Positions 19,170 through 50,664 of a stretch of DNA of 64,000 nucleotides are shown one piece after another. Below the pieces are notes generated by a model. The model was not told where the DNA came from. It searched no databases and was given only the letters and a program-made list of their open reading frames with translations. Where the stretch lies: assembly GCF_000003815.2 (NCBI RefSeq), contig NC_049986.1:23462630-23526629 (forward strand). The letters are read 5' to 3'. The DNA is from Branchiostoma floridae (lineage: Eukaryota; Chordata; Leptocardii; Amphioxiformes; Branchiostomatidae). Numbering within the stretch: position 1 is the first letter of the stretch; each line of letters opens with the position of its first letter. The translations under genes were made by a program, and so were the position numbers.

Positions 19170-19410
19170 GCTACCATGCAGACGACATTGTCTTTTTAAT
19201 GTCTACTGTGGTCTCACACCACGGTGATCGGTGCCCCGACCGCTGCGACAGGAGCATTGAAGCAAGGAGCTTGGTTGAAGTAGAAGAAGCCCTAGAAGAA
19301 AATGAAGAACAACATGTCACTGACGAAAAATACTGGATAGTAGTTGAAACATCTGACCGTTTCCAGAATCATAATTATCCAGTTGCTTGAGTAACTACTT
19401 TTTGGTGTAT
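19170..19410 (+). repeat. Dispersed repeat fragment
   Basis: The 3' part (CTGACCGTTTCCAGAATCAT, then TTGCTTGAGTAACTACTTTTTGGTG) recurs at 41.70-41.77 kb inside an RTK intron. The 63-codon open frame starting at 19199 is probably incidental. Confidence 0.4.
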
Positions 19411-19518
19411 CTTATTACCTAGGAAGAACAACTTTATCGCAACAACGACTGTTAACCTAGCAACATGTGAGCAAATCATAACTGACCACTAAAAACGTCA
19501 AGAACCAACATAATGAAT

Positions 19519-19633
19519 TTATCGCTTTTTAAAATATCTCACATTGGGGTCTGCCTCCAGTTGCTCTCTGATTGATGTTGCCTCTGGCCTGTTCTTCTCG
19601 TTAAACTTCCAGCACTGCTTCATCAGGTCATAC
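19519..19633 (-). CDS. RTK exon 20: end of kinase domain and stop
   Basis: Encodes [17 protein letters not shown] (alpha-H/I, C-W...R-P), then EADPNV and RYFKKR before TAA. The tail after the kinase domain is only about a dozen residues, so few C-terminal docking tyrosines are available. Confidence 0.9.
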
Positions 19634-22600
19634 CTGCAAGTCATAAATATATGGTCTGTAAAGTTCAAGATTTATGAATTGGAGACTCATTCCTAGTATC
19701 CTGATCAGACTCACGATTTTACGAGATCACAATCTCCGTCTCGACATTTTGTATGTTGCGTACATGGGAAGTTGAGGATGAAGTGTATTTTGGACTAGTT
19801 CTCTATCTACTTTCTCAAGCAATGAGAGCGGCGGAGGACAGAGATAGGCGGGGGGGGGGTGGTGGATGGGCTAGTAGGGGTGCCCCATTCATGATAGATG
19901 AGGTGAGGTGTGAAAATCACATTCAGGCACACATAAACAAAATCATTTGACATAGACGCATCGTCAAACTACTTTAAGCCATGCCAACAGAAAAGATTAA
20001 GATGTGATCAAACATAGCGAGACCTCACCTTTGGTATGTGCACATCTGGGGCTTGGGGAGTCTGAAGTGGTTCTGCAAAGCATCGTACAGACTTTCTGCA
20101 GTCTCTATTCCAGAGTAAGGCATGCGGCCCAGCTGCGCCACTTCCCACAGCAGAACCCCGAAAGACCAGCTGCATGGACAGTGAGGACATTTGTTCATAT
20201 GAGAATCGAGGGGTAAGAGTAAGCGTGGTCATCGTATGCAGCACTGAGAAATATGTTCATTATGATCATTGGTGTTAAGCTACCCATAGAAACCTGACGT
20301 TTGGAGTGATGACGAAAAATTGTTGGTCTCTACAATTGAGTAATTAGATGTCAAACCAATACTCTTTCTAAGCTGCATGATTATATGTTATAACGTTCTT
20401 TTGAATTCTCCGTTACTTCAGATTTTTCGACAAATGAGAAGGTAAACAGGCATTTGCCGATGAGTTCGGCAACCTGTTTGCCTGACCTGCACATGACTTT
20501 TTATGGTAAAAGAGGGGTGTGCAATTCCTTCTCCACCCTCTCGTCTACTGACGCCCATAGTCCCGCAGGTGCTCCAGCATGTACTGAATTTGAATTATAA
20601 ACGTTCCGACTCGATTTGTGCATAATCAGTACTCAATTATGTCAATCACCACATGGCAAAAATTAAACAATTTTCATCAAACTATCGTTGAGCTATCCTC
20701 CTTTTAAGTTTTAGAATGTTGTAATATGGTTACAATGGCACACTCACACGTCACTCTTGTGGGTGAACCTAGCCTCGTTCTTCAGGCCCTCCGGAGCCAT
20801 CCACTTCAGCGGCAGGAGGTCGTTACGCTGAAGGAATAGATAAAGACAGTGTTAAGAAACAGTGGGGTTCTTTCAACTATTATTGAACCTAGAGATTCGC
20901 GACCAAAGGTAACACAAATGCGTATGATTAAACTGTGATATTGTTGTGTGATTGATTAATTCACTAGCCATTGTTGGGTATAACACGATTGCTAAATTGT
21001 TGGCCGTTTTTGCTGTTTTTATTATTTGTTTTCTTTTTTTATACATACTACAAATACCCAACGAATACTATAGGGTGTGACCTACACCGTCCTGCCGATG
21101 GTACCCCACAGCGTACATGTCCCGGGCCAGCCCGAAGTCCGCGATCTTGGCGGTTCCCTTCCCACAGATCAGGATGTTCCGGGCAGCGATGTCTCGGTGA
21201 ACAAGCTGGATACAGGAAGGACAACATATATGTAGTACTAGCGATTTGCCCGTAGTCTTTGGAACCACTTACATCTAATAGATGATAGTTAATCAAGCCA
21301 GATTGTCCAATTTTGACAACGTTTTAGACACGTTTGGAACTATTGTTTTTTTTTACCTTCATGCTTGCCAGATGCTCCAGACCGCAGCACACTTCCACCA
21401 TCATGTTCTCGAAGATGTGCCGTTTGTTGACCAGAACGGTCCTGTTGAGTTTGGACTCCGCACGTAACGTCCACAGCAGGTGCAGGAGGCATCCTTGCTC
21501 TGCGTATTCCAGCACCAGTTGAAGTGGTCCTATAATTAAACCCATTTACAGTAGAAGCCAGTTATTTGCACAATGGATTAACGCACACTTCTGTTAACTG
21601 CACGGAATCACAAAATCCAAAACCGGTGCGGTCCAGCTGGATAACTTCGCCTTATAGCACCAGCCGGATAATTGCACGAAATACATTGGCAAACAGGCCG
21701 TGTAATTAAACGGCTTCTACTGTTCTATCATAGTCTGTATAGACTGGACTGACAGTAGTGGTAATAATATCATACTAATGCTGACCCTAGAATGATATGA
21801 CGGCATTCAGAAGAAAATTAACAGTTACACATCCATTAACCAAAGACCACAACAAACAAACAAACAACTGACCATCTCTAAAACAGATGCCTTTCAGCCC
21901 GATGATGTTGTCATGGTTACCACACAACAACATAATGCAGGTTTCCCTCAGAAGGGCTTCCTTAGAGTGGGTCTCTTCTTCATCTGGACAAATATAAACA
22001 TGTAAGCAACAAACAGAAAACGTTTCATCGTGCATTTTCGAATATGCTAAAAGAAACCATTCTGACCTGTTCTTGTCATTAATGTTACCCAATTTCATCC
22101 TCATAGAATAGTCTACTAAGGTTAGACATCCAGGTAAGCAATATTCAGCGTCACTAGAATGAACTAGCAGAACAATTCAATACAAGTACAGCTAGTCCAT
22201 TCTAGTGACGCTGCAGAAGAGTGATGGATGTCACTCGAAACGTCCGGAAGTAAATATACGTTTTCAATCCAGTTGTAGAGATTGAATTGTATCTGAAAAT
22301 CTACAAGTAATTACATTTTAGCCTCTTCACAGCCACCACCACGTCGTCTTCCCCAGGTTGCGACAGCGTTGCCTTGACGACAGAGGTATGTCCAGAAAAG
22401 GGGTAATTGTACGAAGTTAGTGTGTACGAACTTGTACGAAGTTAAAGGTAGATATAGACCGTAATCGGTAAACTTCGGAAGTGTTAAGTGACGTCATCTA
22501 ACTTTGTACAGGTAGGCAGGGTTGGTGTACGATGTACGATGTACGAACTTAAAAAATCTAACTTAGTACATAGGGGAAGGGTTGATGTACGATGTACGAT

Positions 22601-25600
22601 GTACGAACTTAAAAATCTAACTTAGCACAGAGAGGCAGGGTTGATGTACGATGTACGATGTACGAACTTAAAAAATCTAACTTAGTACATAGGGGCAGGG
22701 TTGGTGTACGATGTACGATGTACGAACTTAAAAAATCTAACTTAGTACATAGGGGCAGGGTTGATGTACGATGTACGATGTACGAACTTAAAAATCTAAC
22801 TTAGTACAGAGGGGCAGGGTTGATGTACGATGTACGATGTACGAACTTAAAAAATCTAACTTAGTACAGAGGGGCAGGGTTGATGTACGATGTACGAACT
22901 TAAAAAATCTAACTTAGTACAGAGGGGCAGGGTTGATGTACGATGTACGATGTACGAACTTAAAAAAAATCTAACTTAGTACAGAGGGGCAGGGTTGATG
23001 TACGATGTACGATGTACGAACTTAAAAAATCTAACTTAGTACAGAGGGGCAGGGTTGATGTACGATGTACGAACTTAAAAAATCTAACTTAGTACAGAGG
23101 GGCAGGGTTGATGTACGATGTACGATGTACGAACTTAAAAAAAATCTAACTTAGTACAGAGGGGCAGGGTTGATGTACGATGTACGATGTACGAACTTAA
23201 AAAATCTAACTTAGTACAGAGGGGCAGGGTTGATGTACGATGTACGATGTACGAACTTAAAAAATCTAACTTAGTACAGAGGGGCAGGGTTGATGTACGA
23301 TGTACGAACTTAAAAAATCTAACTTAGTACAGAGGGGCAGGGTTGATGTACGTACACAATGTTCGAGAAGAGGGAAAACTGGAGAGAGCCGGTGTGACAG
23401 CGATCTCGCCCCCCCCCCCCAAGAGCAGCTGGTTACTACATTTTACAGGTGCGCTACCTGGTACTATACTGCACCTGGGGAGTAACGTGTATGGTGTGTT
23501 ACCTGGTACCTTATGGCACCTTATTACCGTACCGTAAGATGCCTGTCATACCTCGAAAGTCGATACTATATTGTTCGGTGCAAACATGACATTGAAATGA
23601 AAAAGACAATTTTTGCAGCTGAGGTGGCATAAAAACAGTGCTACTGCGAACGTATAAATCAACACCGTCTATTGTACGGAATACGTCAGCTATATGTTTC
23701 CAATTTGTCACAGTGTTTTCTTTCTTGTGCTGGAAACATTTCCAAAGCACTAACAAAAACACACGTGAATAATAGTTTCTCATTATAAACACTATCTACG
23801 CGCAAGTTGATATAGCTGTTGCTAAATGATACACAAACACTGGTAAAGTACCTGTCTTAAGAAACACGGGTAAATGCATCAGTTCCTAAATACTAGAAAA
23901 AACAGTCATGTTGGAGGTGAAGATATCCCTTGGCCAGGTGCATATACCAAAATGTGCGTTATTCTAATTAATACCTAATATTTGCATAATTAATAAAGAC
24001 ATTACATAGTTCTTTTGTGGTCACTTCATGGTAGAGACTTCATATTGGAGATATATAGGTTGTTTGAGGACAGGTGAATACAATGAAATACATCTTATGT
24101 CAAGACTCAGGTATATGCAATAATGGGAATACAAGGGACCCAACCCTCCTTGTCTGAAACAAGTTCAACTATCTTATTACCATGTAATTACGTTAATATT
24201 GATACTATGAATGGAGTTATGTATCAAACTCGTGTACTTATATCATTCTGAAACTGCATTTTGTGATTTATACCAATCAACTTCTAAAATGTCATGTAAA
24301 CCCGTTTTTTTTGTGGGGGGGGCGAAATCGCTAAAGGGGGGCGAGGTAGGGGGGCGAGATCACTAGCCGGGGAGGGCGAGATCGCTAGCGATTTCGCCCC
24401 GGGGGGGCGAGATCGCTAGTGATTTCGCCCCCGGGGGGGCGAGATCACGGGGGGGCGAGATCGCTGTCACACCGGACTGCTGACCTTGTAAATTATCAAA
24501 AATAAATGTTCAACAAAAGATAAATGCAATACATGTTGCATTTTCATTATTTTCAGACAAAACATCGTTATTCTACATGTTTCACATTTACCATGTGCAA
24601 CAGGTGAAAGTAGAATAAAATGCTGCGTACAGAGTTAGCATAACCCACAGCATAATCAAAATATCTTAACTTCGTACATCGTACATCGTACATTAGGTCC
24701 GCCCCATGTACGAACTTAGCATAACCCACAAAATAGAAAAATCTTAACTTCGAACATCGTACATCGTACATTAGGTCCGCCCCATGTACGAACTTAGCAA
24801 AACCCACAAAGTAGAAAACATATTAACTTCGAACATCGTACATTAGGTCCGCCCCATGTACGAACTTAGCGTAGCTACGTCACAGATAATTGTCGACGTT
24901 TAACTTTGCCGACAGCGGTTGTCGGAAGTTGTCGGAAGCTAGAAGTTGTCGGAAATTACGTGTGACGTAGGCTGATCCAAACTTCGTACATTTCACCCAT
25001 TTCTGGACATGTATGAAGTACGGGATAGAATATATAGTTTTTCCTGAGGTTTTTCCTACATTCTGTCTTCCACCTGTCAAATCGATTCATTTTTGCGCCA
25101 ATCTTGCAAAGAATGACTTTTTACAGTTCATTTTAAACTAGTCAGTATGCAAGGGTCATTTTTAGATGTAATGTTTTTGATTTCTCCACTTCAAATCAAT
25201 GTGTCGCTGGAAGAATTCATCATCGCACGGAGGGAGGATTCTTTTAGAATTCAATTATGGATTATGGTGGTGATGTTCTTGAATTAATTTTTGCTCACAA
25301 GTACCACTGAAAGGGTCTATTATCTCACTAGGTGAATTTGTAGAATTTAATTTTGATGATCTGCAAAGTCAACTTTATAGTGGAAGTTTTTTTAATGTTC
25401 TAGAGTAACTTGAATTATCCTACGAAAAGTCTGTCCTCGCAAGTTTTTTTTGTAAAGACACCTTTCGAACAGTCTGTTTTGCATAGGGTTTTAGATAGGT
25501 AAAATATGCTGTATTTGCTAGCAACTATCGCCTGTTTAGTTGATATTGGAAATAAAATTAAAATAAGGTCAACGATAGACGATAGGTATAAGCAGTATAG

Positions 25601-28600
25601 CAATGGGTGTACCGACTTGAGTAAAAATATTTCCATAAAAGATTTTGTCGTTAGTAAATGGCGCGTTCATACAACATTCATTGGAGTACCTTGGGTATGA
25701 TAGCTGAATGTGCATTGCCTTCCTACGGCGCTTGGGATAGCAGATGGTCATCCCGTGGTTCCGGCCGAACCTCGCCAGGACCATAAACGTGGAGCCCGAA
25801 GCTGTCTTATGAACCTGGATAGAAATAGATATGTTATTAAAAGTAAGGTAAGAAATAATTGAAGTTCAAAATGACGTAATGATCGTCATCATCATCGAAT
25901 GATTGTTAGACCGAACTTGCGGCACCGGTACGGCACTGCGGGATTCAAAAGAAATTCAACGAATTCCAGAGATAAAGAACGAATTTGTTTGACGTTGTGT
26001 GTATTTGTTGCTTTCTAAGTCATATTACGCAATAAGTAAACTACAAAGAAATCGGCGGAAATTACACGGCAGTGCCGCAGTGAACGAACCCCGCACTGTC
26101 GCACTGGTTATTCAAGTGCAGTGAGATACCACTAAGTTTTGGATCAACGGCGTTTCAGAGGTTCTCGGTCTCACCCAGAGACAAGAGAAAAAAAATTATA
26201 TACAAGAAGTCATGTAACATAACCAGCATGCACTTACATTGCTTACGTTTCGATGTCTCTCAGACACCTTCGTCAGAGCTTCTAACTGGAGTTCTGCTTC
26301 TAAGCGCTATATGTAGCCTATGTAGGTGGCGCTTTTGCAGTAAAAAAACAGCAATCCCAAACGTGGATAAGCGTTTAGTTTAACTCCAGTTAAAAGCTCT
26401 GACGACATCGAAATGTAAGCAATGTAAGTACCTGCTGGTTGTGTAAAATGAATTCTCTTACTTTTTATATTTGATGTTGATTTGAACCATTGTTTTATAT
26501 TAATGTATGTAATCCAGCTCTACTTGTTTTGGACAAACATTCGATCTAGATATTATTATGTTATCAATCATAAGGCCACCGTTCCCAATATGCATCACAC
26601 ATTGGTGTCCGCATGTGGGAAACTATGCAGTTTTTGGATGATAATGAACTAATTTGAAAAAAAATGACATGCTTTATTGGCACATTGTAGTATCCCTGGG
26701 GTTAAATTGCAATACACTATAATACAGACAGGAGTATGTCTCCATGGAAGACTGCTGCATACTTTTTTTGCTACAATTGAACTTTCAAGCGTAAGAACAA
26801 TGGTTATTACATACCCTCTCTAGCTCTCTTAAACTTTAACAGATAGTAACCAGGAATCAAGAAGTGCAGACATTTCTATACCCAAGACATCGTTACATCC
26901 TAATGTTATAATTACCTGCACAACATCAAAAATCTACGAGCTTCTTAAAAAATAAATCAAAATTTGCACTATTCTGTATTCATTTAAATAGGTTAAGCTT
27001 TCACCACCATTATTGATAGAGACATCTGTTTAGTCCTAAATACTACCAAGTTACCTTGATGAATACAAAGTTGGTGACAGGACGGCCACAGGTAGGAAGC
27101 CTTGTTGGAGCTAACTTTGTTACATTGCCTTGTGCTGTGGGGTGGTATCCGGTTTGCATTAGGCTCATCCGGTTTGTATTAGCTCCATCAACTCTGTAGC
27201 AAATAAAACAGATAAGTGTATATTTCTAATTATTTTAGAAAAACGTTTAAGAAATAAAGAATATCTGTTCCTATATTTTTAGTATATCAAAGAAGAGGGA
27301 AGAAGTCGAATTCACTGAGTAAAATAGGATTTTTGAGTAGGTAGATATTGTATATATTTCATCTATCTGTCAGTTGTTGTTTTGTTGCGACCTGTACCTA
27401 ACCCAGTGGGTACGTATGTACAATAAAGGTCTTTTTGATTCATAAATAAAGACAATGTGACAAAGGTAAAAACAGTGCACCTAAGCCATCAGAGACCACA
27501 GATTTGTCCAGTTGTCATATTCTACTAAACAATAAGTAAAAATCCCCCTCAAAATTAACAGAGTTATGACAAGGAAAATGTGTTCAAAATAAGATTAAAT
27601 TCGCAATCTTTGATAGTTTAAATCTTCCCGTCTGAATTGAGAGAGCTGTCTTGTTTCAATTTTGCTTCCAAAGACGATTATTTTCTGTTTCAAGGAAGGC
27701 CTTCAATTTGACTAAACTCTTGATAAGATGGGCCGCAAGTGCAATGGAAAATTCTCGATTTTAGACTTCTCGTCATCTGAGAGGCAAATAAAACATTTTG
27801 TTTTGGGATTTTTTTTATTTTAAGCAAAGTTACTGTCAAAAATATGCGTAAAAATAGCATTTTTCGCACTTAATTACCAATAATTCAAAATCGAAGGCAT
27901 TTTTTAAAAATCCCAATATCAAAAATCGCGGGAAAACCGTTGCGGTCATTTTGAGCCGTTAAGGAGTTAAGTTGGACTCTTCTTGGTCGAGATCTTAAAC
28001 GATGTTTGCACGCATATCATGCCGCACAGATAGCGGGAGGGTGTAATTGATACCGGTGTAAACAACACTTATGATATTCAAGGTCACCAACAAAGACGCC
28101 AGTAGCTTTGTTACATATTGCAGATCCACCACAAAGTGATAGCATAGATGTGCTGTCCAGAAAATTGTTTATATTGGTGAAAAGGTATATTTTTCGCCTG
28201 ATTCAAGTTAGTTGGGGGAAAAAGGCCAAAAAGCACTGTTTTACCTGCAATGACCGCAGATGACCCTAAATAGAACACGGGTTCTGTTCACATTACGTCA
28301 GATGGAACACCATGGAAGAAGGTTCAAATTCGGCTAGACATGGGAGGTTTTGAGCCCGTATTTGACCACCGTGGAAAAAAAGAAATATTCTTATTTCTAA
28401 GGGTTATATGTTAGATACTGCATTGTGACGCGTACGGCAAAGCTTACTTTGAGAGCACGTATGCACTGATGTCCTTTGAAAAAACAATTCTTACCTTTGC
28501 GTGATATGAAAATTAGCGAATGCCGGTTTTACTGCGGTTGTCCTGTCCTTCCATCCCGATAGGAAACTGATGGACATGTATGTTGCCACACAACTCAAAG

Positions 28601-31600
28601 AAAGTGCAAGAAACAAGAAATCTCGTGCCATAATGAGGTTGTTTGGTTCCCTCAGTCAGAACGGTACCCTTTAATCTCGTTACCACTCTCGAGCTGCAAA
28701 AGTGAGCAAATGTCAAACAAGATTGGCAATGAAAAATACGATGCCATGGCATATATTACAACAAAACGCTAAATGTTGTGGGGTTTTGGGGCTACATTCT
28801 GGTAAATGGGTGTACTAGATATTTAATCATATGACCCATGTATAATTTTTTGCATAAAGCACTTTAAAATGATATTTAGGGGGATTTGTTCTGGTCAGTT
28901 TCCAATGGCCAGAGGGGTCAATGACGTGAAGAATATAACTTCAGGCCTTTACATGTCTATTTATCTTAATTGAATAGGCAACCAATCAAGTAACCTGATT
29001 CAATATCCTAAGGAGGATTTGGCAGCCAATCAGCGAGCCTGATGCTATCTGAGGATTCCATTTTTGCAAGGAAGTTTTTTAATTTATCTATGGACTTTGG
29101 TGATTATGTAATGTTAAGTCTTTCAGATGGAGTATTTAGGACTGGTCTGTTTTGCAATTTTATATGGGCTGTGCTGGAAGAGTCCATTCTTCCGCGGATA
29201 GGGGGGGCATTTTTTAAATTCATGTTTTTTTTTTACTTTTGTGATTATGTTAAAGTCCTGGGATGTATTTTTGGACTTCTCCACTTAACATATAGAAGTA
29301 TCAAATATATTGGTTTGCAGAAGTGTTTTTAAACTGATCTATTTTATCGTTTCATGCACGGGAGACGTTTGTTTGCTAAATTAAATTTTGGACTGGATTT
29401 GTTTTTCAACAGGCTATGTTTTCATTTGGATTATTTCTGAGCTGGTCTATCGTGCAAATTCACATAAGGTGCACTGGAAGGGTCCATTCTTGCAGAGGGA
29501 AAAAGACGCAAGGGTGTACGGAGGATATTGTCCTTCATAATATAACCTTTAGTAAACATGCTTTAGTTTCAGTATATCAGCGCTCAGTGTACATTTTGAA
29601 GGGTGGTAAACATTGAATCTTTAGTAAGAGTTGCTGAACGATTAGCACGAGCTGACAAACACGTACAACATGTACTGGGTGTGGCTAACCCCCAAGTGGG
29701 GCTTCTAATTTGAGTCACATGAGGTCAGAATTTGAGGCTGCTAATTTACTAATTAGATCAATTAACTAATTAGATCTTCGCTTAAATGTTCCTAGCTACC
29801 TTGTCTCTCACAACGCACGCCAAATTAAATGATTGACGAAAAAGGAGTCGCCTTGGTAGAATTTTTAGTGGTGTTCTAAAAACATTACGAGATCAAAGTA
29901 CGAGTCTGATATGATCCGCACTCGAATGCTTCCAATCACACAAGAGCGGACCATTCGTGAACGGGGGTGTTTCCGCACGTTTTAGAAATAAGTGAAAAAT
30001 AGAATAAGTCCGAAATTATTACAAAAGAAGTCTCTTGAGAGACATTTTGTACTGCTGGTTATTTTAGTAAGACTCAGGAAGTTTCTTTAGGCCCTCTGAA
30101 ATGAATCCAATTGTGAAATTTTGGGAGACAAACGCAGACAGAAGTCTTTAAAGGTTTAAAATGTCAAAGTGTCAAACAATTTTTCGTGCGATTGACTAGC
30201 TAACGTATTTTTTCCGAGAATACATAGCTAGCAACATTAAACTGTATCCTTTCTTGGTTTTATTTAAGATACAAGTCAGGTCTAAAGCTAGAGTAATTAT
30301 TAACTACTTTATGTTTTTAAGAAAGTAAATTAATCCCAAAAGCTGATATTAGTTTCCAGTGCTATTCTATGAAACACATATTGGTAAAAGCAACATGAGA
30401 TGATATTTTCTATTCAAGAGACCACAAAGGACTGAAACATTCTAAATATTGCTATTAAATGAAGTATCACAATGTCCACATTTACGTATATAAGTACCCT
30501 TAGAAGACAATGGGGACGCTGACATACAATGTACAATAAAAAGTGTTGCCAAAACATTGGCTGTAATACCTTAACATACTAATTAATTACCTTTGCTATC
30601 TAATTATGAAGACTTATAATCACAAATACGAGATTTTGTACACTCTTACCTTGCCATTTAACGAATCTTCAGGATATTCGGGGTACGTGTCCCGGTTGAC
30701 ATTTAGTGACTTCTGCGTGACGTAGCTTGTTAAGTACAAGTTGACTAACCAGTATAGTCACATGGTACTGGTGTCCTTCACCCCTAGTCTACGAGCCCGT
30801 ATGCGCAAAAACAGAGGCTCTTTAATTCAAAACCTTATATTTGCATTATCGCATTACAAGTTGTATGTCCGGAGAAAGCACCTTTAATAATTTTTTTTAC
30901 AAACATAGCATTCAAAGTACGTTCTCTCTCACGTTATAGCAAACTGTGTGTATCAACAAACAATTACGTATAGATTCTTTATAGTTTAATCTCTAAATTA
31001 ACTAGCAACTGAATCTAATGACAAACTAAGGAATTAATACAGAATTTCTTTGAATTGTAGGTTGATTGCAGTCATTCTTACCATATGGAAAATGTAGAAC
31101 AATATATCGTGTATACTGTAGTCTGAAAGCTCAATCTCAGCTTACTAGTGCAGGGTTCTACTTATGTTTCGGAAGTAGTGAATTCGAAACACAAGAGATT
31201 CCACTTTTTTTTTCAATGCGCGGCAGTTGTGACATGGGGGAGGGAGTCGTTTCGCCTGTAATTTTGTTTCGCCTGTTAATGTGATTTTGATAGTAATGTA
31301 CAACCCTTTGCAAAAGCCTTTTTATAAACAGGGTGCACCCAAAATTGGAGCAATTTTTATGTGGGTGCACCCAAATATTTGCGTAGGTTTATAGTATGTA
31401 AACATACTAGTATGCACCATATCATTGATATCCAAGTGTTAGAAATATGATAAAATGTCTGTCATGGTACTTGTTTTTTAAGTTGAATTTGGGTTCATCA
31501 AGATTTTAGGTACTCAGACGAGGAGCAGTGAGCTTTGTAATTAGTTTTGTTTTCTACATTATTACCTCCATGACATTTCGTGGACGAAATATTTTACCCT

Positions 31601-34600
31601 GCGTTTGTCTGTCTGTCTGTCAACAAGATAACTCAAGAATGGCTAAGTGAAATGGTTTCATACTTCATACTTTCATGTGTGTTGTTAGTTAGTAATAAAA
31701 GATAAAAATGATTGGATTTTGGGCCACCTAGCGGCTTCCCTTGGTACTGCTGCGCAACTGCCGGGATCGGAAACTCGTGTTCTGAACAAGCTACGGTCAC
31801 TATTTTGAATTGTTAGATAGCTTTTGTGCTCAGGAAAAAGTGACATAAGTTTGAGCTCACTAGCGGCTAGTTTTGGGATAGCAGGAGCATTTTTGTCAAA
31901 AACTTCTAAAGGCGATGATAACTCAAGAAGAGAACAATACCTTAGACAATGTTGTAGAAATGAAATACTAATTATGCAAAATAGGAGCATTTGCATAATT
32001 AATGAGAATACTCTATCATAGTATTTTTCTATGTATCTCTTGTCCCGGACGTAATATGGTTTTGACATTAGAGTGGTAGATAGCTTTCAGTGTCATGACA
32101 AAGTGGGGCAAGTCTTAGCCCCCTTACATTTTATTTTGGAACTTTCCAAAGAGGATAACTGCAGAAAGGATTAAGGGATAGGCATCATTTTAAACAGGCA
32201 TGTAGCTTAGACATAGATGTTCATAATGATATCCAAGTTATGCAAATGGGGACTTAATTTGCATAATTAATGAGGGAAATGTATGATTCCCTTGTTTTCA
32301 ATAACTTGACTTCAATAAATGTAAAACACGTTAATTATGATAGGTGGAATATAAGCAGATACCACAATGAGGAATTTATTTGCATAATTTATGTAAACAT
32401 TGCAAAAACATGATGGTAATCTTATTATTGTGACATGTGCACGTTAGTCAATGATGAACAACACCATGCATAAATTATGTTAATGCATTAGTTAATGCAT
32501 TAGTCAATTGCATGGAATTTACAAAAGCTCTTAATATTTCATGGAGGGAGGTCGCCGAACTCTAGTTCTAGTGCACCCAAAAAGTCTTTGGTGCACCCTA
32601 TTTTTTAAGTTGGATTTTAGAAAAGTGTTGACCTGCATTACGTTTGTGTTGTGATTGTTTAGAAACGGTTGTACTAATTGTTAGTTTATTGTGTTTACAA
32701 ATGACAGGTCTACTGACTTTGCAAAGAAAATGTTGCTTTGCTGTATTACTGACTGCTGGAACGGGTGGAACTAACAACGTGAAACTTAGATTTAACACAT
32801 TTACCCTGGAAATGGTAAATGAGACCTGTTAGGTTCATCCTTTCGAGGCGAGTATATCCGGAGTCCTTTTTCAGTAAAAGATTTTGAACTCGTCTATTCT
32901 AACTGGAGGATCTGCCAGAAGAGTCAATTCTTGCAGGGGCTTTACCTTTTTTTTTAAACTTTATTTTGAAACTGTCAATTTTTGCATGTGATAATAAATA
33001 AGTAAAATAACTTGCATTTTCTGTATGTTGCATTTCCAGTTTGTATTGTTTTAAAAATAGCTACTTGAAAACTGTCATTTGCAAGTAAGCAAATGTTAAG
33101 AATTTCACCAAATTGAGCAATATACGTAAGCACACTAAACAGTTTGTATACAACTAGACAGGTGCGCCAATAACAACACTGTACCTACAGTATGTGCATG
33201 TTTCTACATCACTTAACACCGCTGAGTTTCTTCAAGATCTGTTTCGTCTCTTCGTTTTGTCTCTCAACCACATCCCAACAAGCGTCCGCCCATCGGTCTT
33301 CCTTCCATTTCAGTTCTTTACAGAAGGGCGAATCAATCACAAATTCCTGACTCCATTTACCAGCAGGAAAGACTCTTTTACCACCTACTGAGTTACAATG
33401 TTTGTTCACCTCACCATTCAGGGTCTTGTAATATGTGACCTCTTCCCAAAACTCCGGTCCCTCATTTGTTACACGTTGCCAAAATGTCTTATTCAAGTAG
33501 TCGTACATCATATAATCGATATTGCTCATTTTCCTGTGAGTTTCTTCCTGTTCTGTAGTTAGAGAGACGTGTTCTTTCTTAGTATGAAGAGCATGCAGCT
33601 TTTGTGTTGTGTGTAGAATGTCGTAAAGTCTCCAGCAAAACTTCCTTCTCAGAAGAACTAAGGACTCCTCCCAGTACTCTGTTATCAGGACCACCGAGTA
33701 CCAACCCGCAACGGTCCTGTGTAAAGAATAATCTAAAATTAAGAAACGTTTCCATACATCATGAAGTTCGTCTGTTTAAAATTCGTTTCTTAACATCTTA
33801 ACCCTAAAAGCAGCAGATTTGACGAAACTCGCATTCTGTAAGCAGTCTTTCAATTTGAAAGCTCCCAAGGCGCAAAAGTGCTAATTGCATTAAAGGTTGC
33901 TTTCCTATTACTATATTAGAAAAGATACTTGAACAAGCTATTGGACCTATCTGGATGTATTTACGTGTGTTTCCCAATTTTGCTTAGCTTGTAAAATTTT
34001 GGAGTCTGTAGTAAACAAAACGAAAGTTTCTGTTCTGTAATAATTTGTCAATGAAGTTTGTTTTCTCCAAGGCTAACCTGGACATGCTAATGTATCAGTG
34101 TAACAAACTCAGCATCGTTTCCTCAATACTGACACGGTTATAATCTATATGAGCCTATATCAAATAACAAAATTAAATATGTTACAATTAATGTATGACT
34201 TACCAAGTCAAATTATTATTATCAATCATGCATTAAGTAAAACATCAGTGAAATGCAATAAAAAGACTAATATAACCCACCTAATTTCTTCATATATTTG
34301 GCTTTCATTTTTGCTGGTCATCAGCCTTTTCGGGAACCCCATGGTGTACGCTTGAAAATTTTTGTGTTTCGAATATGTTTTCTTCCGGTCGTGAGTTGTA
34401 TTAAGAAACGCTCCGAGTGGATTTTCAATACGCCGGGCAACTCTACTCTTCCAAAAGAAGATTGACCGGAAATGATTGAGAGGCTCCCGAAAGATGCCGA
34501 TATACTTGGTGCCGGGCTCCATGACTCGGTCCATGGCTGGCTTGTTCATGACTGAATGGTGTATGATGAGGCTGTATTTTCTTCCAGGGGACGGTCTACA

Positions 34601-37600
34601 GTCGTCCTTTGTCAGTTTTCCACTGTGGGGCATATTTTGATGGGTTTGTATCAATGTATGACATTCAATTAGGCACCATACCACGGATGCGGGTTGAAAT
34701 ATATTATTTTCCTGGTGTTTCTTCCCATCCTCCTCCTTCAGTCAAATATTTAAATCTCATTACGGGGTCAAAAGACCTGAAAGTTGGTACGAGGGGGAAA
34801 TGGACCAATAACCCCACGTGCTTTTATTTTTTATTTCATAACTGCCTTTGAAATTATTCTATTGAGGTTTTATGATGATTTTTGGACCGAACGTGTATTG
34901 TGTATAATATCAATTGTACTTCTACCAACACAGACGGACTTTAAGAAAATACCGTTTTTTTTTAGATTTGCTAATATGGGAATGCATATTGCAGCTTGAA
35001 TGAAAATATTTCCATGTTATATTTTGTAGATAGTACATGACACATTCTTTTTGCAACATATCTTATATTACCTTGGGTATGATAGCTGAATGTGTCTAGC
35101 CTTCCTACGGAGCGCGGGATAGCAGATGGTCATCCCGTGGTTCCGGCCGAACCTCGCCAGTACCCTAAACGTGGAGCCAGAAGCTGTCTTATGAACCTGG
35201 ATAGAAATAAATGTGTTATTGGGAGTTAGTTACAGAAATAGTTGAGGTATAAAATGAGTAATTCATTATCATCATCATCATCAAATGAGAGATTGTTGTA
35301 TTGCAAAGTAAGAAACAAAGCTTCACCAAGAAATAAGAGAAAATAAATCTTTGGAAAAATGAAGCCTCCAATGAATGTCTTCAAAACTAATCATTTGTAA
35401 CTGTTACTTAGCATGCAGACATTACCCTTTAAGAAACACTGTTAAGAGAGAAAACACCTGAATCCAAGAACATAATTCTCTTCTTGCTTTGAATAAAATT
35501 TCGATCAAAACATTATTATCTTAACAATCATAAGATCACCATTCCCATTGCGTCATTCATCACACATTGGTCTCTGTATGTGGGAAACTATTAAATTTAT
35601 ACTAAACGTAAGAACATTCCTGGTTAGGACATAAATCTTCACAGATTTACTTGAGATAAAGGGGATACATAAAGGCCACATGTTTTTCTGTTTATTTTGC
35701 CAGAGTACATTTTATGGGTGGTTTTAAATTGCACTCACGGTGTCATAATGGGGTGAATTCTAAGGCTTGGTTAAATACAATCTAATGTATACAACTGGAT
35801 AAGATTATCCAGAGATGAGGTATGGATGCTTTGATTGACATCCATCAATCACTTTTCTTAAGCATAACTATAGAATGAAGTAGAAGAGCAACACAATACA
35901 AGTTAATCTAACTGGAAAAAACGGTTGGACTTGTCTAAGTCATAAAAGTTACAATGTTTACAAATCTAACTCATAATATTATTCAAATCATGTTTGGAAA
36001 GTTCTTATACTAAGACAACACCATAGGAATATTTACTGTTAGCATTGTAGAGATTAAATTGTCTTTAAATATTGTTTACCTGTAACAAAGAAACGAAGAT
36101 AATCTAAATCCAATACATCGTTACAACGTAATGCTACATGCACTACATGGTTATCAGGTCATTGCAGTTGATTCTTCGAATAGTCATAAAATATTTGCAT
36201 CAAATTGTACCCATCTAAATAGGCTAAGCCTATACGATCATCACTGATACTGGCATTTATTAAGTCCTAAATGCTATCATTGTTCCCTTCACACGAGAGC
36301 ACAAATGAGCCGGAATGCCGTCCGAATGTATTTTTTTTTCTATTCATGGCAATTCCTCGCAATTCGTACTGTATTCTAAACATTCTTACTGCATTCGATA
36401 TATTCGTCCCCGTTCTTTTGGCTGGCTCGACAGTTTTTCACATGTTAAAAACTGTCGAGGTGCATTCGAAGTGGAGAAATATCGAATGGCATGCGCATTC
36501 GTAGTGGATTCTTAGTGTATTCTAACTATTCTGACTGCAGTCTGACCGCATTCTACGGCATTCTAACATTATTCGAAACATTCTTATCCCATTCGATGGA
36601 GAACCGAAACGGCAAGCCACCTCGAATCCTGCCAGAATGTGACCGAAAGAATATTTGGAATGCCGTAAGAATGTCTAGAATGCATTAAGAATTCACAGGA
36701 ATAGACAAGAATTTTCATTCTGACGGCATTCCGGCTCATTCCTTCTGGTGTGGATTTAAGGCCCATTTGGAATTCCCACCCGAATGGTCCCGAATGTGAC
36801 ACGAAGTTTGCAAATACTTCAATCCGGCTGGTTCGGCTTGATTCCTGCTAATTCGATTTCCGTGTGAAGGCCCTATTACCTTGATGAATACAAAATTGGT
36901 GACAGGACGGCCACAGGTAGGAAGGCTTGTTGGAACCGACGTCATTACACTGTTCTGTGTTGAGGGAAGGTATCCTGTCTGCATCAGGCTCTTGAACTTT
37001 GACCTGTATCAAATAGAAACAGTAATTTCCTCCTCAAAGTTAATGTAAGAGTCCAAACCCCCGAAACAAATGGTATGGCCCAGTGGTGGGGGTCAGAGGT
37101 CACGAGAACCGGTTTAGACCAGTTCCGGAGATGCACATATTGAATATAGACTGCACTGTCGAACACTCCGTGTCTTGAGTCTCCTTTCTTGTAGTAACCT
37201 TGGGTAGAGGGAAATGGCGACACATTTTCGTCTTACATTAATGGTATACTACGTAATTTATCTAAAGGAACCACCAGAGTTAAACCCTCATGGCTGTAAA
37301 TAACAAAGTGTGTACGATGTACTGATGTTGCAACTTCTCTCACTGAGCCTTGGTATTCAACGCTAAAGGATAGAAGCTTAATATGTAAAGAAGTGGCAGT
37401 AAAATATAGTTTTTACTGACCAAATATTACGTAGTATAACTTTAACAACGAATCACAGTGGCAAAGGTGATGATTTCAATGAAATCATCACCTTTGCCAC
37501 TGTGATTCGTGTCTTGTATCCTTCACTTAGCCCGGTGTGGCATACAGTGCAGTAATGTACTTCATTTATTCTAAAGTCTTTCGAAAACATTCTTTTTTTT

Positions 37601-40600
37601 ACCTTTTGGCGGCATAGAGATTAGCAAATGCCGGTTTTACTGAGATCTCCGTGTCTTTCCATCCCCGTGGAAAACTGATGGACATGTATGTTGTTACACA
37701 AGTCAGGAAAAGTGCGAGAAATATGAACTCTCGTGCCATGACCATCTCGTGACGTCACCACTGTCAAGCTGTAGAAGTGAGCGAACGAAAAACATTAAAA
37801 AAACACGTAAGGAAATGTATGGGTAAGGTCTGCATGAGTTTAGTGCGTTTTACCAACACACCTCGCGTACTAGTAATTTACCACAATTGAAAATCTGCCA
37901 AAAGGTTGTTGATTGTTAATTCATTATTCATTGCTACATAATCTATTGAAAAATAAAACTCCCATCTGGAATTTAGTACTCATTTAAAGGTCGTTATACA
38001 TCTATATCATAGTTCTAACATTCGTATTCATTGTATCAAAAGAGAAATTTGGCCAAAAGCACTGGACCAGACTATCGTGAGCCAAATACTTCTGTTATTT
38101 CTAGATGGAGTCTATTTTCTGCCATTAAAGTATGTGCCAAAAACATGCAAAGCTTGGGTACTACTGGCTTTGGTTGTTATAAATAGAAACTATCAAATTT
38201 CACTGTTATCGTCTATATCAAACACGGTAAACAAAACGTTAAAACATACCGTCTTCTAACTGACTGTCGATTCAGTTGCACGATACGTCGATGTATCTAG
38301 GTAATAAGGTACGCCAAAAAAGGCCAATCAGGCCAACCGAGAAATTCCAGTATCTAGTATGACGGGTTGCAGATACATGTGAACACTTACCAACCTGTCG
38401 GTTGACGAATAATATGTGGGCATGGCACGTGAATAGGTCTGAAAGCAGGCCTTCCAAGAAGACGTGCGTCATCAAATGTTTTCTTCTTCTCTACTTTTCG
38501 CCGAAGGCTAGGCGACCTAGTTACAAATTTGACAACATACTTGGACATTAGCCGATGTTCAAACCTGCTACGAAATCGCATTATCTAGTGTGACTTTTTT
38601 GTTATATAAACTTTCAAACCTGTCACTGCAAAGCAAACCTTGTAAACTTTTGCTTCATGTATTAAACCTATTCAGACGAAAGGGGGGGGGAGGTATGGTC
38701 GCCAACAACATATACAAATGTATTGGCTGCCGGGTTCGACTGGTCGCTTCTCTCTAGCCGCCGGCTAGGGATTAACATATAAATCGGCACCGACCGCACA
38801 CGGCGATCGGTTGCTAGGAGGTATGTCCAGAAAAGGGGTAAATGTACGAAGTTAGTGTGTACGAACTTGTACGAACTTGTACGAAGTTAAAGGTAGATAT
38901 AAACCGTAATCGGTAAAGTTCGGAAGTTTTAAGTGACGTCATCTAACTTTGTACAGGTAGGCAGGGTTGGTGTACGATGTACGATGTACGAACTTAAAAA
39001 ATCTAACTTAGTACAGAGGGGCAGGGTTGATGTACGATGTACGATGTACGAACTTAAAAAATCCAACTTAGTACATAGGGGCAGGGTTGATGTACGATGT
39101 ACGATGTACGAACTTAAAAAATTTAACTTAGTACAGAGGGGCAGGGTTGATGTACGATGTACGATGTACGAGCTTAAAAAATCCAACTTAGTACATAGGG
39201 GCAGGGTTGATGTACGATGTACGATGTACGAGCTTAAAAAATCCAACTTAGTACATAGGGGCAGGGTTGATGTACGATGTACGATGTACGAACTTAAAAA
39301 ATCTAACTTAGTACAGAGGGGCAGGGTTGATGTACGATGTACGATGTACGAACTTAAAAAATCTAACTTAGTACAGAGGGGCAGGGTTGATGTACGATGT
39401 ACGAACTTAAAAAATCCAACTTAGTACAGAGGGGCAGGGTTGATGTACGATGTACGATGTACGAACTTAAAAAATCTAACTTAGTACAGAGGGGCAGGGT
39501 TGATGTACGATGTACGATGTACGAACTTAAAAAATCCAACTTAGTACAGAGGGGCAGGGTTGATGTACGATGTACGATGTACGAACTTAAAAAAATTAAC
39601 TTAGTACAGAGGGGCAGGGTTGATGTACGATGTACGATGTACGAACTTAAAAAACTTTACCTTTCCTACTTAAAGATAGATACTGACGTGTGTAAACAAG
39701 TGTTCAGTTGCTTGTCTAGGTACAGCAGGATGACAAAGTACATGAGTCGTGAAAGATTCATCTTCTTCCTGCTGTACCTAGCCCATCTCCACAATGTTCG
39801 AGAAGAGAGAAAACTGGAGAGAGCAGGACTGCTGACCTTGTAAATTATCAAAATTAATGTTTAACAAAAGATAAATGCAATACATGTTGCATTTTTATTA
39901 TTTTCAGACAAAACATCGTTATTCTACATGTTTCACATTTACCATGTGCGACAGGTGAAATTAGAATAGAATGCTGCGTACAGAGTTAGCATAACCCACA
40001 GCATAGTCAAAATATATTAACTTCGTACATCGTACTTCGTACATTAGGTCCGCTCCATGTACAAAGTTAGCATAACCCCCAAAATAGAAAAATCTTAACT
40101 TCGTACATCGTACATCGTACATTAGGTCCGCCCCATGTACGAACTTAGCATAACCCACAAAATAGAAAACATCTTAACTTCGAACATCGTACATCGTACA
40201 TTAGGTCCGCCCCATGTACGAACTTAACGTAGCTACGTCACAGATAATTGTCGACGTTTCCCGAACTTTGCCGACAGCGGTTGTCGGAAGTTGTCGGAAG
40301 CTAGAAGTTGTCGGAAATTACGTGTGACGTAGGCTGATCCAAACTTCGTACATTTCACCCATTTCTGGACATGTATGTGACGACATGTCCAAAAGCGCCC
40401 TCTCCCAGAAGCTGTCCGCCCTGCAACCAGCTCCTGTGGATTTCCCGTTCCTTCAGCAGCTCCATGTCGATACTGCTCGATCTGGGTACCCCTACATGCG
40501 GTATCACAGCCTGGGAACAGTTTGAGATAGAAATTTATGATAAAATACAATGAGCACATTGTGCTAAAAGAGACACCTCCCAGAGTAGCTCAGCCGACTT

Positions 40601-43600
40601 TACTGTAATATCATGATTTGTATAATGTAACATTCATGGTCACTTACAAAGGGTTGAAGATCCAAATTACTTAGCATACATCGTATGTCCCAAATGAAAA
40701 TCAAATGTACAAAAGAATCCATCGTGAACTTGATGAGAGCTCCCTTTTATATATAATCTGAAATACATAATCGGTTTGGTGAGGTTGTATCTTATTTTGA
40801 GCACAGTTGCCAGCCTAACAGGTGACAGATATAACCGAAGAACCTACCTGTAGATTCTGACCCAGCTGTACAACTTCAAGATCGCCGATGATTTTTACCC
40901 GCCTCCTGTGCCGTAACAGGAAAATGGCACCAAGGAGGAGAAGACCAAATCCGGCTGCTGACAGGCTGATGGTGGCCAGTAGACTTAAGCTCTTGCGAGC
41001 AACTGTGTTGATATACGAAAACAGCATGATTATTCACGGAACTGAAATGAGTTTAGTTTCGTGTGGGAATGCAGCAAAGCATCAAAGCTACCGATTTCTT
41101 GGGACATCGTCTAAGAGTGGGTGAATGCGTTGTCCAGAGCATTACGATTTAGCCGCTGGTCGCTAAGACCATATGCATTTAAATAAAGTCATGGACGCCC
41201 GGGTCCATAATGTGCATCACCTGGTGCGCAGCCCATGTCCCTATAGCATGTCTGCCACTCGGTACAGTTGCATACCCGGTTACACTCCTGGCCGTAAAAA
41301 TTATCCTGGCAGCCTGTGGACGGAATATACCATCATAACATTGAGGTCAAATATGAGACTCTGTATTGCAGATGAGTTGAAATGCCGTTATGTGTTCGAG
41401 CAAAAGTTCATCTAAATGCTAATGGTAGGAACTTTAGATACCTGCTATTCTTATCTGCTCAGTGACTCTGAATTTGTCTCCGTTGGTGGCGAACGCCTCA
41501 CATGTCACGTTTCCCTCGTGTTCAGGCAGGAATGATTTGTAGTGTAGAGTAGATGTAGAACTATGGAGAAAATGAGGATAGAGCTATTGGTTCTTTTAAG
41601 CACCTGTATAAACAGGAATGCCTCGCTAGTTAGGCACAGTTTATTTTACGTCGAAATAAGACAGCCTTCATCAGTGTCTCTTGCCAAAGGCAATGGATGC
41701 TGCCTAAGACGTCTGACCGTTTCCAAATCATATCCATTTGCTTGTTAATGAGTAACTGCTTTTTGGTGCGCATTTTCTTTCATAATTATTGATATGCAAA
41801 TACTAAAATCAACTTTGTTTTCTTAATTTGTTATATTCTTTCGATTTCATTATGCATTTTATTCTTTTGTTGTGTCACCATGTGTTCTTTTGTTTTTTTT
41901 GCGCAATGTGGTAATGTTTTATCATTGATGTACGCAAGTTGATTTGCACCCTTTTTGTATGTTTTTTTAAATGTTTTGTTGTTGCTTCATAGGGCTATGT
42001 TTTGTTTTTATATGCAAGTCACTTTAAAAACCACTCTGGTGGCGATATGGCATAAATGAACGAAATATAACGGATTTCCGTTAATGAAATTAGTTCTGCT
42101 TGGGTTCGCGGAACGCTAGCACTTTTACCAAACCAGCTTTCGGCCGGAAATTGTGCACTTGTAAGCAAATGGAAATAATATCTGTAACATTTGGCGATTT
42201 TAAAAATCTGATAGTAACCTCAGAAATGTTCATTAAAAAGCACAGAATGACGTTTTCACATTTACAAGCCATGCTTATTGTACTACAATTGCTTTTTGTA
42301 TCTGTATTTTTTTGTTGAATAAAAATATTAAATTTTTTTCAGATTTGTGGTAATGGAAGAGAGTCCCTTACCCACTGATTGTGATGTCTGGGGAATTATT
42401 CCCAAAGAGCCAGGTGACGTTCGTGACTTGGATATTGTGGCCAATGCATCTGAGCTGTAGGTCCTGTCCATACCGCAAGTCTATCAGATCAGTTGTTGGA
42501 CTTTCGATGCTCAAGACTGAATATTCTTGATATAAGAAATAACAAGAAAAGTTACAAAGGCACCCTCTGGACGATGGAAAATCAATAACTGGTGAATGAC
42601 AGGAATCATGATTATCCACATATCAGTCAGATGGGTTTTTTTCACGTTCTCCGCCAAATGAAAATCTTTTGAGGGTCATATCTAGTTTACAGACTAGCTA
42701 GAAAAATAAGAGTGAAATTGACAATCCATTCATATACAATGTATATAGCGAGGATAAATGTCAATAGGAGAAATCACAGGTCACTCATAAAATCTTCTAA
42801 TTCTATGACCTGGCAAAGGCCTGGAAGAAGCTAAATATTTCTATAGTAAGCCTCCAAAATGACCAAGACATTACTATCAGACTTAACTTTAAGACAGTTA
42901 AAACAGTTGCTATGGACAGAGGAAAATTCACGAAGAAGTTTCACAGCGAAGCTGTTATTATGCAGGCCGTTGGGATGAGGTCACATTACCGACCTATGTT
43001 GCAGTTCCTTCCCCTCCAGCCAGGGGCGCACCTGCACGCCCCGTTGAAGCTGTGGCATGAGGCTCCGTTATAACACTGGCAGCGTTCCGCACAGAACCGG
43101 CCGAACCGCCCGATGGGACAGGCTGGAGAACAACCATTTTGATATCATCCCATGCAGTATCTAGCTTTTCAGTTTTTCAAACTCGGGGTCTAAATGATCA
43201 TCTATGACCTAATGCTCTGGAAAAACGTACACAATTGTTTACCAATTGCAAGTTCTACCACTAAGAAGTCTTGCAAGTGACATACGACGTTCCCTCGATA
43301 GAACTCTTCCTACCTGTTACTGTTAGGTTTGTTACAATTGTTTCCACTGTTGTAAAAGGCATCTCGCATACAACGGTGTTCTGGTCAGCATTCTGCTTTC
43401 CAACCTGGTGATAAAATGTAAAAACTCTTCAACACTTAAGTTCGCCTGTTTGACCTGTCATATAGAGCACATGTTTTGTTTAACTTAAACATGCATTTAT
43501 ATGCCATGATAACTATTTTGTCAAGTTGAATTTTTCCCAACAAAATATACCTTGGTAAGTTTCCGCTATTATTTGCTACTATTACTGGCGCAAGTTAGAA

Positions 43601-48503: not shown

Positions 48504-48669
48504 GTTGGGAACAGCTTAAAGACGTACCGAGAACAGAAGGGGGTCCTCACTGCGTAGCTGCACCTGGAGTTAGATGTACAACGGTTAGGCTTCATGTGTC
48601 GTTCAGTATGGTATGAACCAGCTACTGGTGATCTGGAGTGCATGCGACTCTGGTGTGTTATGACAAATG

Positions 48670-49185
48670 ATAGATGCAGAAGCTGGTGTGCTACAAAAAA
48701 GGGCGGTTATACTGGCTATATAAAGATATAAACGCTACTGTGTTAGGAAACTGTTACGCTGAATGGCGGTTATACCGGCTATTCAGATACAGATACAAAT
48801 ATAGAAGCTGGTGTGTTACGCCGAAGGGCGGTTATACCGGCTATACAGATACAGATACAGAAGCTGGTGTGTTACGCCGAAGGGCGGTGATACCGGCTAT
48901 ACAGATACAGATACAGATACAGAAGCTGGTGTGTTACGCTGAAGGGCGGTTATACCGGCTATACTGATACAGAAGCTAGTGTGTAACACCGAAGGGCGGT
49001 TATACCGGCTATATAGATACAGAAGCTGGTGTGTAACGCCGAAGGGTGGTTATACCGGCTATATAGATACAGATACAGAAGCTGGCGTGTTACGCCGAAG
49101 TGCGGTTATACCGGCTATACAGATACAGATACAGAAGTGTGTTATGCTGAAGGGCGGTTATAACGACTATACAGATACAAAATCA
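48670..49185 (+). repeat. Minisatellite just upstream of the RTK start
   Basis: About ten units of 45-60 bp with CAGATACAGAAGCTGGTGTG, TTACGCCGAAGGGCGGTTAT and ACCGGCTATA; the GATACA hexamer is itself repeated one to three times. Begins about 170 bp 5' of the RTK ATG. Confidence 0.9.
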
Positions 49186-49602
49186 ATGGTGTTGAGACGA
49201 GTGATACCTAAAGCGGCGGTACAAGTGCAAATGTAGAACCTCCTTATAGGGCAGATAGGTACAAAATTGGACACATTGTAAATCTGTTGGTTTATGCCGA
49301 ATTTGTATGGTTCACGTCAAGGAAAACCCCTGTATGTACACCTGCCGTGAGGTAATTTTACAATGTTTGTTTTAAGCGACCTACGGACAAAGGCATACAG
49401 CGTGCGATGCAATGTGCAAACCTTGCCTGAGCCAAAACTCTTTTGTTATGTAAATTTCCCTTTCGTCTGTGTAGTTTGATTCTTATTATTGTGCTCTCAG
49501 ATAAAGTATTGTCCACTTCTACCAGACCATAGACATATAGCCGATTAATCGTCTAGAAAACTCTGTCTCCTTACTCACAAACACCCCAATATACACACGC
49601 AT

Positions 49603-49613
49603 GCAACCACACA

Positions 49614-49657
<44 letters not shown>

Positions 49658-49805
49658 GTCACACACATTCAGACACACAAGTACACGCAAGCACTCGCAC
49701 AAACACAGGAATACACACACAAACATACATACATACATACATACATACATACATACATACATACATACATACATACGAACATACATACGAACATACATAC
49801 ATACA
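49603..49805 (+). repeat. CA and CATA microsatellites
   Basis: (CA)n at 49.61-49.65 kb, then (CATA)n at 49.72-49.80 kb. Open frames of Thr/His or Tyr/Val/Cys across it are artefacts. Confidence 0.95.
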
Positions 49806-50454
49806 AAAAATGAAACGTTCAGTTAGCTGTTCTGCAGTTTAACAACATTATTAACCCAAATGAAAGTGCCGTTACGGCGACTGCTGCTTACACTTTTACA
49901 CTGCAGAACCTTACATATAAACTACTAGATAATACAACATTACACGAACGAAATCTACTAGCACAGGTAGACCCACCTGTTCGCCGTGAGTTGCCAACAG
50001 GAAATAAAGAATGCAGGTTTGAGGCACTTCAGTCTTTATTTGTTTGAACCTTTGTTAATTCATGAAAGCTCAAATTGGCCGGCACACCGCTTTTCAATGA
50101 GCTCATAAGGGTCTATTTCTGTAGGTTTGTACTAGGGTTAATGATCCACAGAGCTGCAACAAATAACCTGTCCGTAAGGCATGTCGCCCTGACGTGGCAA
50201 AGTTGACAAAGTTGGCTGTATGTTGCCTCCCCTCTCTCTAAAAGGCTTATAACACCAGAGCTATGTTGCTGAATCGTATGATTCTAACTGCATGGCAAAG
50301 GTCTTTATTTATTCCCAATCTAGGTCAGAATCACAACTTGGTTGTATATAAAGACCGTTGTTAAACAGGAACATTAAAACCTTGATAATTTCCTCCATGG
50401 GTCATGCACCACGTAAACGGGACCAGGTAAGTAGGTAGGGAGGACTCTCACTGC

Positions 50455-50662
50455 ACTTGTGGCACCATGCGGCACTGCAGAGTTCGTAGATGACTTAATG
50501 AATTTCAGAGATAGAGAACGAATTTTGTTGTCTTCTAGATGATAATTTTACGTATCACGCAATATCTAAATTATCAAAAATCGCGCAAATAACAAACAGT
50601 GCTGCAGTCAACGAACCCCGCAGTGCCGCACCGGTGCTCCAAGTGCAGTGAAAGTCCACCTG
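50455..50662. mobile_element. MITE-like element, second copy
   Basis: Same family as 25.92-26.12 kb: ends GGCACCATGCGGCACTGCAG and, reverse-complemented, GCACCGGTGCGGCACTGCGG, with GAACGAATTT words inside. Confidence 0.6.
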
Positions 50663-50664
50663 TA

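Follow-up and report, generated by a model that had tools for sequence, protein, structure and literature searches.

The stretch of the Branchiostoma floridae genome analyzed here, referred to as the window, is 64,000 nucleotides long and corresponds to C8:23462630-23526629, where C8 denotes contig NC_049986.1. It carries an exon of a receptor tyrosine kinase (RTK) gene that is interrupted by an 18-kb unit. This unit is composed of two related elements, called E1 and E2, and of 13.8 kb of DNA between them (the cargo) that bears exons of a sulfotransferase (Gal3ST) gene and matches a locus on C16. The genome searched comprises 513.4 Mb in 431 contigs, including C8 (25.6 Mb), C16 (19.2 Mb), and C3 (34.2 Mb).

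The interrupted exon is read on the minus strand. Its 3′ half is located at 22315-22374 and its 5′ half at 40386-40510, with the outer exon edge approximate in each case. As the preliminary description had claimed, the same 8 bp, TGACGACA, are present at both breakpoints, at 22375-22382 and at 40378-40385. The probability of an 8-bp agreement by chance is 2.8e-5 per pair, calculated from base composition. When position 22382 is joined to position 40386, a single open kinase frame is obtained on the minus strand, and the prediction that the frame is restored once the insert is dropped is therefore correct. The 18-kb unit contains no gap, since no N occurs in the window before position 57462. 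The rejoined exon places 33 of 42 residues on the Pfam profile PK_Tyr_Ser-Thr (E 7.2e-05), with a score of 22.6 bits that just misses the cut-off of 23.1. A search of solved structures returns tyrosine-kinase domains at the top, first the kinase domain of RTKC8 (E 2e-05) and then that of CSF1R (E 6e-04). Judged by these sequence matches, Pfam and the solved structures identify the broken exon as one predicted to encode the P-loop of a tyrosine kinase.

At least six further copies of the RTK exon reside on C8, between 23.56 and 23.77 Mb. The insertion point is uninterrupted in 6 of the 6 other copies found, of which L055 has a single substitution in the 8-mer. Two segments of the window, 20706-22382 (92%) and 40378-41337 (97%), align to the nearest relative, which is situated within C8:23562794-23570000. 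In this copy (C8:23563992-23566608), the two flank alignments overlap by exactly 8 bp, at 23565650-23565657. Such an overlap is the picture expected of an empty site, and the copy is either a paralog or a misplaced allele. More broadly, window segments 19201-22382, 40378-44795, and 47220-51127 recur at C8:23550063-23570000, ∼40-81 kb downstream, in changed order and with 92-98% identity. These recurring blocks are a tandem RTK array or unmerged haplotypes.

Both E elements lie on the plus strand. E1, the left element (22383-25015, 2633 bp), starts with GAGGTATGTCCAGAAA and finishes with TTTCTGGACATGTATG. It includes a plus-strand 60-bp tandem array of 14.6 copies (22496-23352) and a nested insert of 1087 bp with inverted ends (CCGGTGTGACAGCGATCTCGCC) at 23389-24475 that is not present in E2. 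The right element, E2 (38818-40377, 1560 bp), includes a plus-strand 60-bp tandem array of 12 copies (38941-39654), followed on the same strand by a coding remnant (39670-39843) that may be the final exon of a transposase of the KDZ type. In the parts that the two elements have in common, 848 columns on the left and 553 on the right, identity is 93-95%, consistent with the earlier claim of related elements in the same orientation at both ends. The terminal inverted repeats of E are short and imperfect, with 12 of 16 positions in agreement between GAGGTATGTCCAGAAA and CATACATGTCCAGAAA. The 8-mer directly after E1 is AAGTACGG and that directly before E2 is GTTGCTAG. The TGACGACA duplication is thus found at the outermost E edges only, as the preliminary description stated.

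The cargo (25016-38817, its right edge uncertain by 1 base) is colinear with C16:87859-101687. On its minus strand are the C-terminal exon of Gal3ST at 33209-33775 (PF06990, E 2.2e-16; 98% identical to C16:95991-96554), an open frame with the middle exon at 34226-34741 (PF06990, E 7e-06; 25.6 bits, missing the cut-off of 27), and an open frame with the exon bearing HKTASGST at 35071-35229. We take the HKTASGST motif to be the 3′-phosphoadenosine 5′-phosphosulfate-binding loop. A stray further copy of the HKTASGST exon is contained in an open frame at 25569-25865, also on the minus strand. The three main frames are colinear with the C16 copy. As read here, the C16 version of the middle frame contains a stop close to its upstream side, and this stop may lie beyond the true exon. 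The cargo had been described as gene-bearing and, in addition, as a complete host gene. The former holds, with three Gal3ST exons in 13.8 kb colinear with C16, whereas completeness is not supported, since a first, membrane-anchor exon was not found in the cargo.

When the last Gal3ST exon was used as a protein query, one other copy was found at 98%, on C16, and the next at 86%, among the best 150 of 184 candidates. Over the whole cargo, 465 substitutions separate the two loci in 13319 aligned bases (3.5%; 0.6-9.1% per kilobase), together with ten indels of at least 20 bp, including one at the position of a 100-N gap on C16. The level of 3.5% is on the order of B. floridae heterozygosity, so either the move would be young or the donor would be another haplotype. 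The cargo-C16 match stops exactly at both inner E edges, and C16 is continuous across them: CTACTCCA runs directly into AAGTACGG at the left edge, and GTTGCTAGG into GTATTC at the right edge. The alternative of a tandem RTK duplication containing one E was excluded because the cargo edges are C16 sequence and not RTK sequence. No E was detected in C16:30001-130000 by blastn with E1, E2, and their ends (4077 positions of this 100 kb are N). Because C16 is without either element, a donor carrying both must be another haplotype or a later state. The preliminary description counted a Gal3ST locus elsewhere as one part of the case for an assembly artifact. A parent locus does exist on C16, and alone it does not decide the matter.

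The E family is well represented in the genome, and copies matching the last 164 bp of E2 are 98-100% identical, the window's own included (best 40 of 77 candidates). In a survey of target-site duplications (TSDs), 30 E loci were examined, 24 of which have both ends (window E2 among them). An exact 8-bp TSD is present in 18 of the 23 other two-ended copies, and these copies are therefore correctly joined. Three of the 18 belong to one tandem triplicate. Non-exact cases are L032, where the flank is of low complexity and the repeat is one base off, and the discordant copies L039, L040, L042, and L044. N runs occur inside 8 of the 30 loci. Pattern scans, from which flanks with an outermost G and mismatched ends were excluded, gave 49 left ends and 32 right ends, and 10 further right ends were added from the examined loci. 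A same-strand right end lies within 30 kb of 26 of the 49 listed left ends, and the flanks match exactly in 22 of these 26 pairs. The four others comprise L040, one pair shifted by a single position, and two pairs with a one-base difference. Of the 23 left ends that lack a listed right end nearby, L056, L069, L070, L073, and L074 were followed individually. The outer pair of the window, at 17987 bp, is the longest matching pair listed; the next is 8089 bp.

These data bear directly on the possibility that two E elements inserted independently into cargo previously present within the RTK exon. Apart from the abundance of E, nothing speaks for such a history. The inner and outer flanks differ for both E1 and E2, compared with matching TSDs in 18 of the 23 other copies, and independent insertion is contradicted by this pattern. 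Moreover, the RTK relatives are without cargo at the insertion point. We consider this explanation extremely improbable.

Several other E loci were considered as second composites and rejected. L030 (C3:7776630) and L056 (C8:13410600-13411600) are one sequence on two chromosomes. On C3, E lies beside TAGATTGT; on C8, ∼20 bp of the E left end remain and some adjacent bases are lost, which resembles imprecise excision. This pair was classed as one duplicated locus whose C8 copy retains ∼20 bp of E. L049 (C3:32920601-32928900) holds an 8.1-kb unit that is flanked by the TSD AAGATCAA, has ends like those of E, and contains an N run of 1.6 kb; having one left and one right end only and no visible transposase, it was taken as a large E relative. 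A pair on C6 with the left flank CCATTGTC is one insertion plus its flank, present twice in opposite orientation. Its two E left ends, at C6:19679108 and C6:19826297 (L073 and L074), are 147 kb apart, and the pair represents an inverted duplication or misplaced haplotypes. At L044 (C12:256204-256366), E is situated between two 257-bp direct repeats (98%). These repeats make the TSD unreadable and accompany the discordant flanks. As a side observation, L036-L038 (C18:6064814-6069619) are three E copies in a row that share the flanking 8-mer TGGCTCTC, a tandem amplification of E plus its flank.

We regard it as reasonably probable that the 18-kb E-cargo-E unit is a macrotransposon that moved en bloc. 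We infer that, on some haplotype, the Gal3ST cluster of C16 would have received two non-autonomous E elements in like orientation and 13.8 kb from each other, and that each insertion would have made its own 8-bp TSD (AAGTACGG for one and GTTGCTAG for the other). A transposase acting in trans could then have brought the E1 left end together with the E2 right end. Through these ends, the unit would have been transferred to C8 and inserted into the P-loop exon of an RTK gene, with duplication of TGACGACA. A different chromosome would thereby have gained a second copy of a Gal3ST segment, and one member of the RTK cluster would have been broken. The preliminary description had likewise proposed that the unit moved as one, which is supported by the 8-bp TSD of the family, by an E-free C16 parent whose match ends at the inner E edges, and by an RTK copy in which the 8 bp occur once.

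A number of observations weigh against macrotransposition. The genome is one merged assembly, and a haplotype in which E lies at the C16 edges was not observed. A single composite of this size was found among the E pairs, and no intact transposase was tied to E. Furthermore, L040 (C7:15501504-15501667, minus strand) is discordant, with CAAAATAC as its left flank and TAAATTTT as its right flank. The first 72 bp of this right flank are found at one other place among the best 40 of 424 candidates, on C1, where they adjoin the right end of an E whose two flanks agree in TAAATTTT. This second place is L043 (C1:29396478-29396641, plus strand), which has a different E body and in which an N run follows the 72 bp. 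The two loci look like the result of an E-mediated misjoin, an ectopic exchange, or a second transfer, and the L040 join indicates that such rival processes are real in this genome. The sequence states of the elements add to these points. E2 has states at −482, −409, −372, and −227 from its right end that are common to L024, L034, L048, and L044; the left ends of L024 and L048 are of the main type. The E1 left end carries a 10-bp deletion of a repeat unit, as do L044, L021, L026, and L047. The L024 and L048 pattern means that an E1-like left end and an E2-like right end exist in one element, which would fit both outer ends of the unit. Because the right-end states are common to L024, L034, and L048, macrotransposition is less favored, and a chimera or recombination more so, than would otherwise be the case.

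If an E resident in the RTK exon had later been split, then E1 would retain the left end and E2 the right end of a single element. The alignment that addresses this prediction holds 25 left ends and 17 of 31 right parts, namely those in which similarity to E2 starts within the first 60 bases of E2. Three states of E2, at positions 85 and 101 on the left and at −417 counted from the right end, are otherwise found in L044 only, whereas E1 has the main state at all three sites. By its rare left-end states, L044 is the closest relative of E2, and this affinity extends from the left side through to −417. The L044 locus also holds the internal remnant of E2 (C12:255674). To the right of −417, E2 matches L044 and L024 equally, and its last 150 bp are without a variant. 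As far as these states indicate, the test would limit a split-element join to about a quarter of the length of E2.

How the assembly was made is pertinent to one rival explanation. The B. floridae assembly is described as an ARACHNE product of ∼tenfold Sanger reads from one diploid animal, with 19 chromosomal scaffolds, in which the haplotypes were assembled apart and then merged with HaploMerger2 (PMC7269912). The assembly analyzed here is probably this Sanger-based, haplotype-merged one. Under these circumstances, the RTK exon might hold one E, and the other haplotype of C16, with two E elements around the cargo, might have been spliced in by the assembler or during merging. A Sanger-era assembly of a diploid animal, merged from its haplotypes, lends itself to such an error, as does the 98-100% identity of E copies over the last 164 bp. 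The 3.5% divergence of the cargo would suit an allele, L040 resembles an E-mediated misjoin, N runs are present in 8 of 30 E loci, and an L024- or L048-like resident would fit both outer ends. However, two joins would be needed around one insert, in a region without a gap and in a family whose TSDs match, and whose copies are hence correctly joined, in 18 of 23 other cases. The joins would also have to fall in limited intervals: the last ∼417 of the 1560 bp of E2 for an L024-like resident, the last ∼227 bp of E2 for a main-type resident, or the first 25 bp of E1 for an L044-like resident. We therefore consider an assembly chimera to be a serious but rather unlikely explanation.

Ectopic recombination would produce a similar structure by biological means. 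In this scenario, a circle containing the cargo and one E, or break repair from a C16 haplotype, would have put the cargo inside an RTK-resident E. It would yield an identical outer TSD and identical inner edges, E copies are similar enough for exchange, and L040 could be such a product. However, this scenario predicts chimeric E1 and E2 elements within the same subtype limits as the assembly chimera, and one more E insertion, a third, would be required in the RTK exon. We judge it improbable.

The coding remnant offers some indication of what kind of element E is. A last-exon-like remnant of the E2 type is also present in several relatives (9 matches). The KDZ profile PF18758 matches 2 of 5 remnants weakly, at profile positions 179-210, with E values of 0.018 and 0.051 that are below the cut-off; the remnant of E2 itself has no PF18758 match in Pfam. 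When the remnant alignment was compared with two genomic KDZ exons by hhalign, a probability of 70.7 was obtained over 26 columns of shallow alignments. Genome-wide, there are 12 PF18758 matches; the two examined, the KDZ exons L071 and L072, show no E-like 3′ end within ∼1 kb. The long E relatives L069 and L070 contain no transposase frame of at least 120 residues outside tandem-array translations. A match of an E2 frame to YicC-like_N (Pfam E 4.1e-05, just under the cut-off) overlaps the tandem-array translation and was taken as spurious. No hAT family appears among the Pfam matches of the E2 remnant and its relatives, for which only a short remnant could be scanned. TSDs of hAT elements are 8 bp long, and the 8-bp TSD of E agrees in length with those of both KDZ (Zisupton) and hAT elements. 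Taken together, the remnant matches suggest that E may belong to a KDZ/Zisupton-like superfamily. Zisupton elements are described as having 8-bp TSDs (PMC12730594), and B. floridae is named among the species with Zisupton homologs in a study whose authors could not detect TSDs for Pristionchus Zisupton elements (PMC9297572). TSDs of 8 bp are also described for Ac, a hAT element (PMC9910405), and for P elements (PMC1562414).

On balance, we lean toward the view that a natural chordate macrotransposon is present, in which a non-autonomous and possibly KDZ/Zisupton-type family copied or moved a multi-exon host gene segment between chromosomes. In that case, the E-free donor copy, the inner flanks, the outer TSD, and the uninterrupted targets can all be read in one genome. 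If true, this would be a natural animal example in which paired non-autonomous elements move a gene-bearing segment between chromosomes and break another gene. It would add a route of gene duplication besides retroposition and unequal crossing-over, and would suggest that gene copies can be dispersed through polymorphic genomes by abundant non-autonomous elements. If the unit is instead an artifact, then repeats of the E type can produce misjoins in older haplotype-merged assemblies that mimic transposition exactly, TSD included.

The macrotransposon and macrotransposition literature that we searched, in which subscription sources were covered partly, revealed no natural animal unit with an identified donor and no natural chordate case. 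Zisupton/KDZ elements resemble E in their 8-bp TSDs, and the short remnant of E relatives resembles the C-terminal part of the KDZ domain. They differ in that no autonomous copy with a full transposase was found for E, and the domain match is below the Pfam cut-off. Galileo, a member of the P superfamily in Drosophila, is described as mediating ectopic recombination, with TSDs and chimerism used as the test (PMC2775673). There, as here, two related elements flank rearranged DNA. However, Galileo copies are in opposite orientation, chimeric, and with exchanged TSDs, whereas E1 and E2 share one orientation and chimerism is not evident but may be present. P-element macrotransposition has been hypothesized for the origin of AgaP2-P12MITE, a miniature inverted-repeat transposable element of Anopheles (PMC1562414). 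This case likewise involves two neighboring copies moving en bloc with an 8-bp TSD; it was put forward as a hypothesis, whereas the cargo, E-free donor copy, and uninterrupted targets of the E unit are directly comparable. In maize, Ac/Ds macrotransposons are described that include a 10.3-kb unit that reinserted and a 28-kb unit that was excised (PMC9910405). As proposed for E, two nearby elements of this hAT family act via their outer ends, make an 8-bp TSD, and move flanking host DNA. The maize events were followed genetically with an active Ac, whereas E is another family, in an animal, and its movement is deduced from one assembly. Macrotransposition as such is thus known from maize Ac/Ds, and what would be new here is the element family, the chordate setting, and a visible donor.

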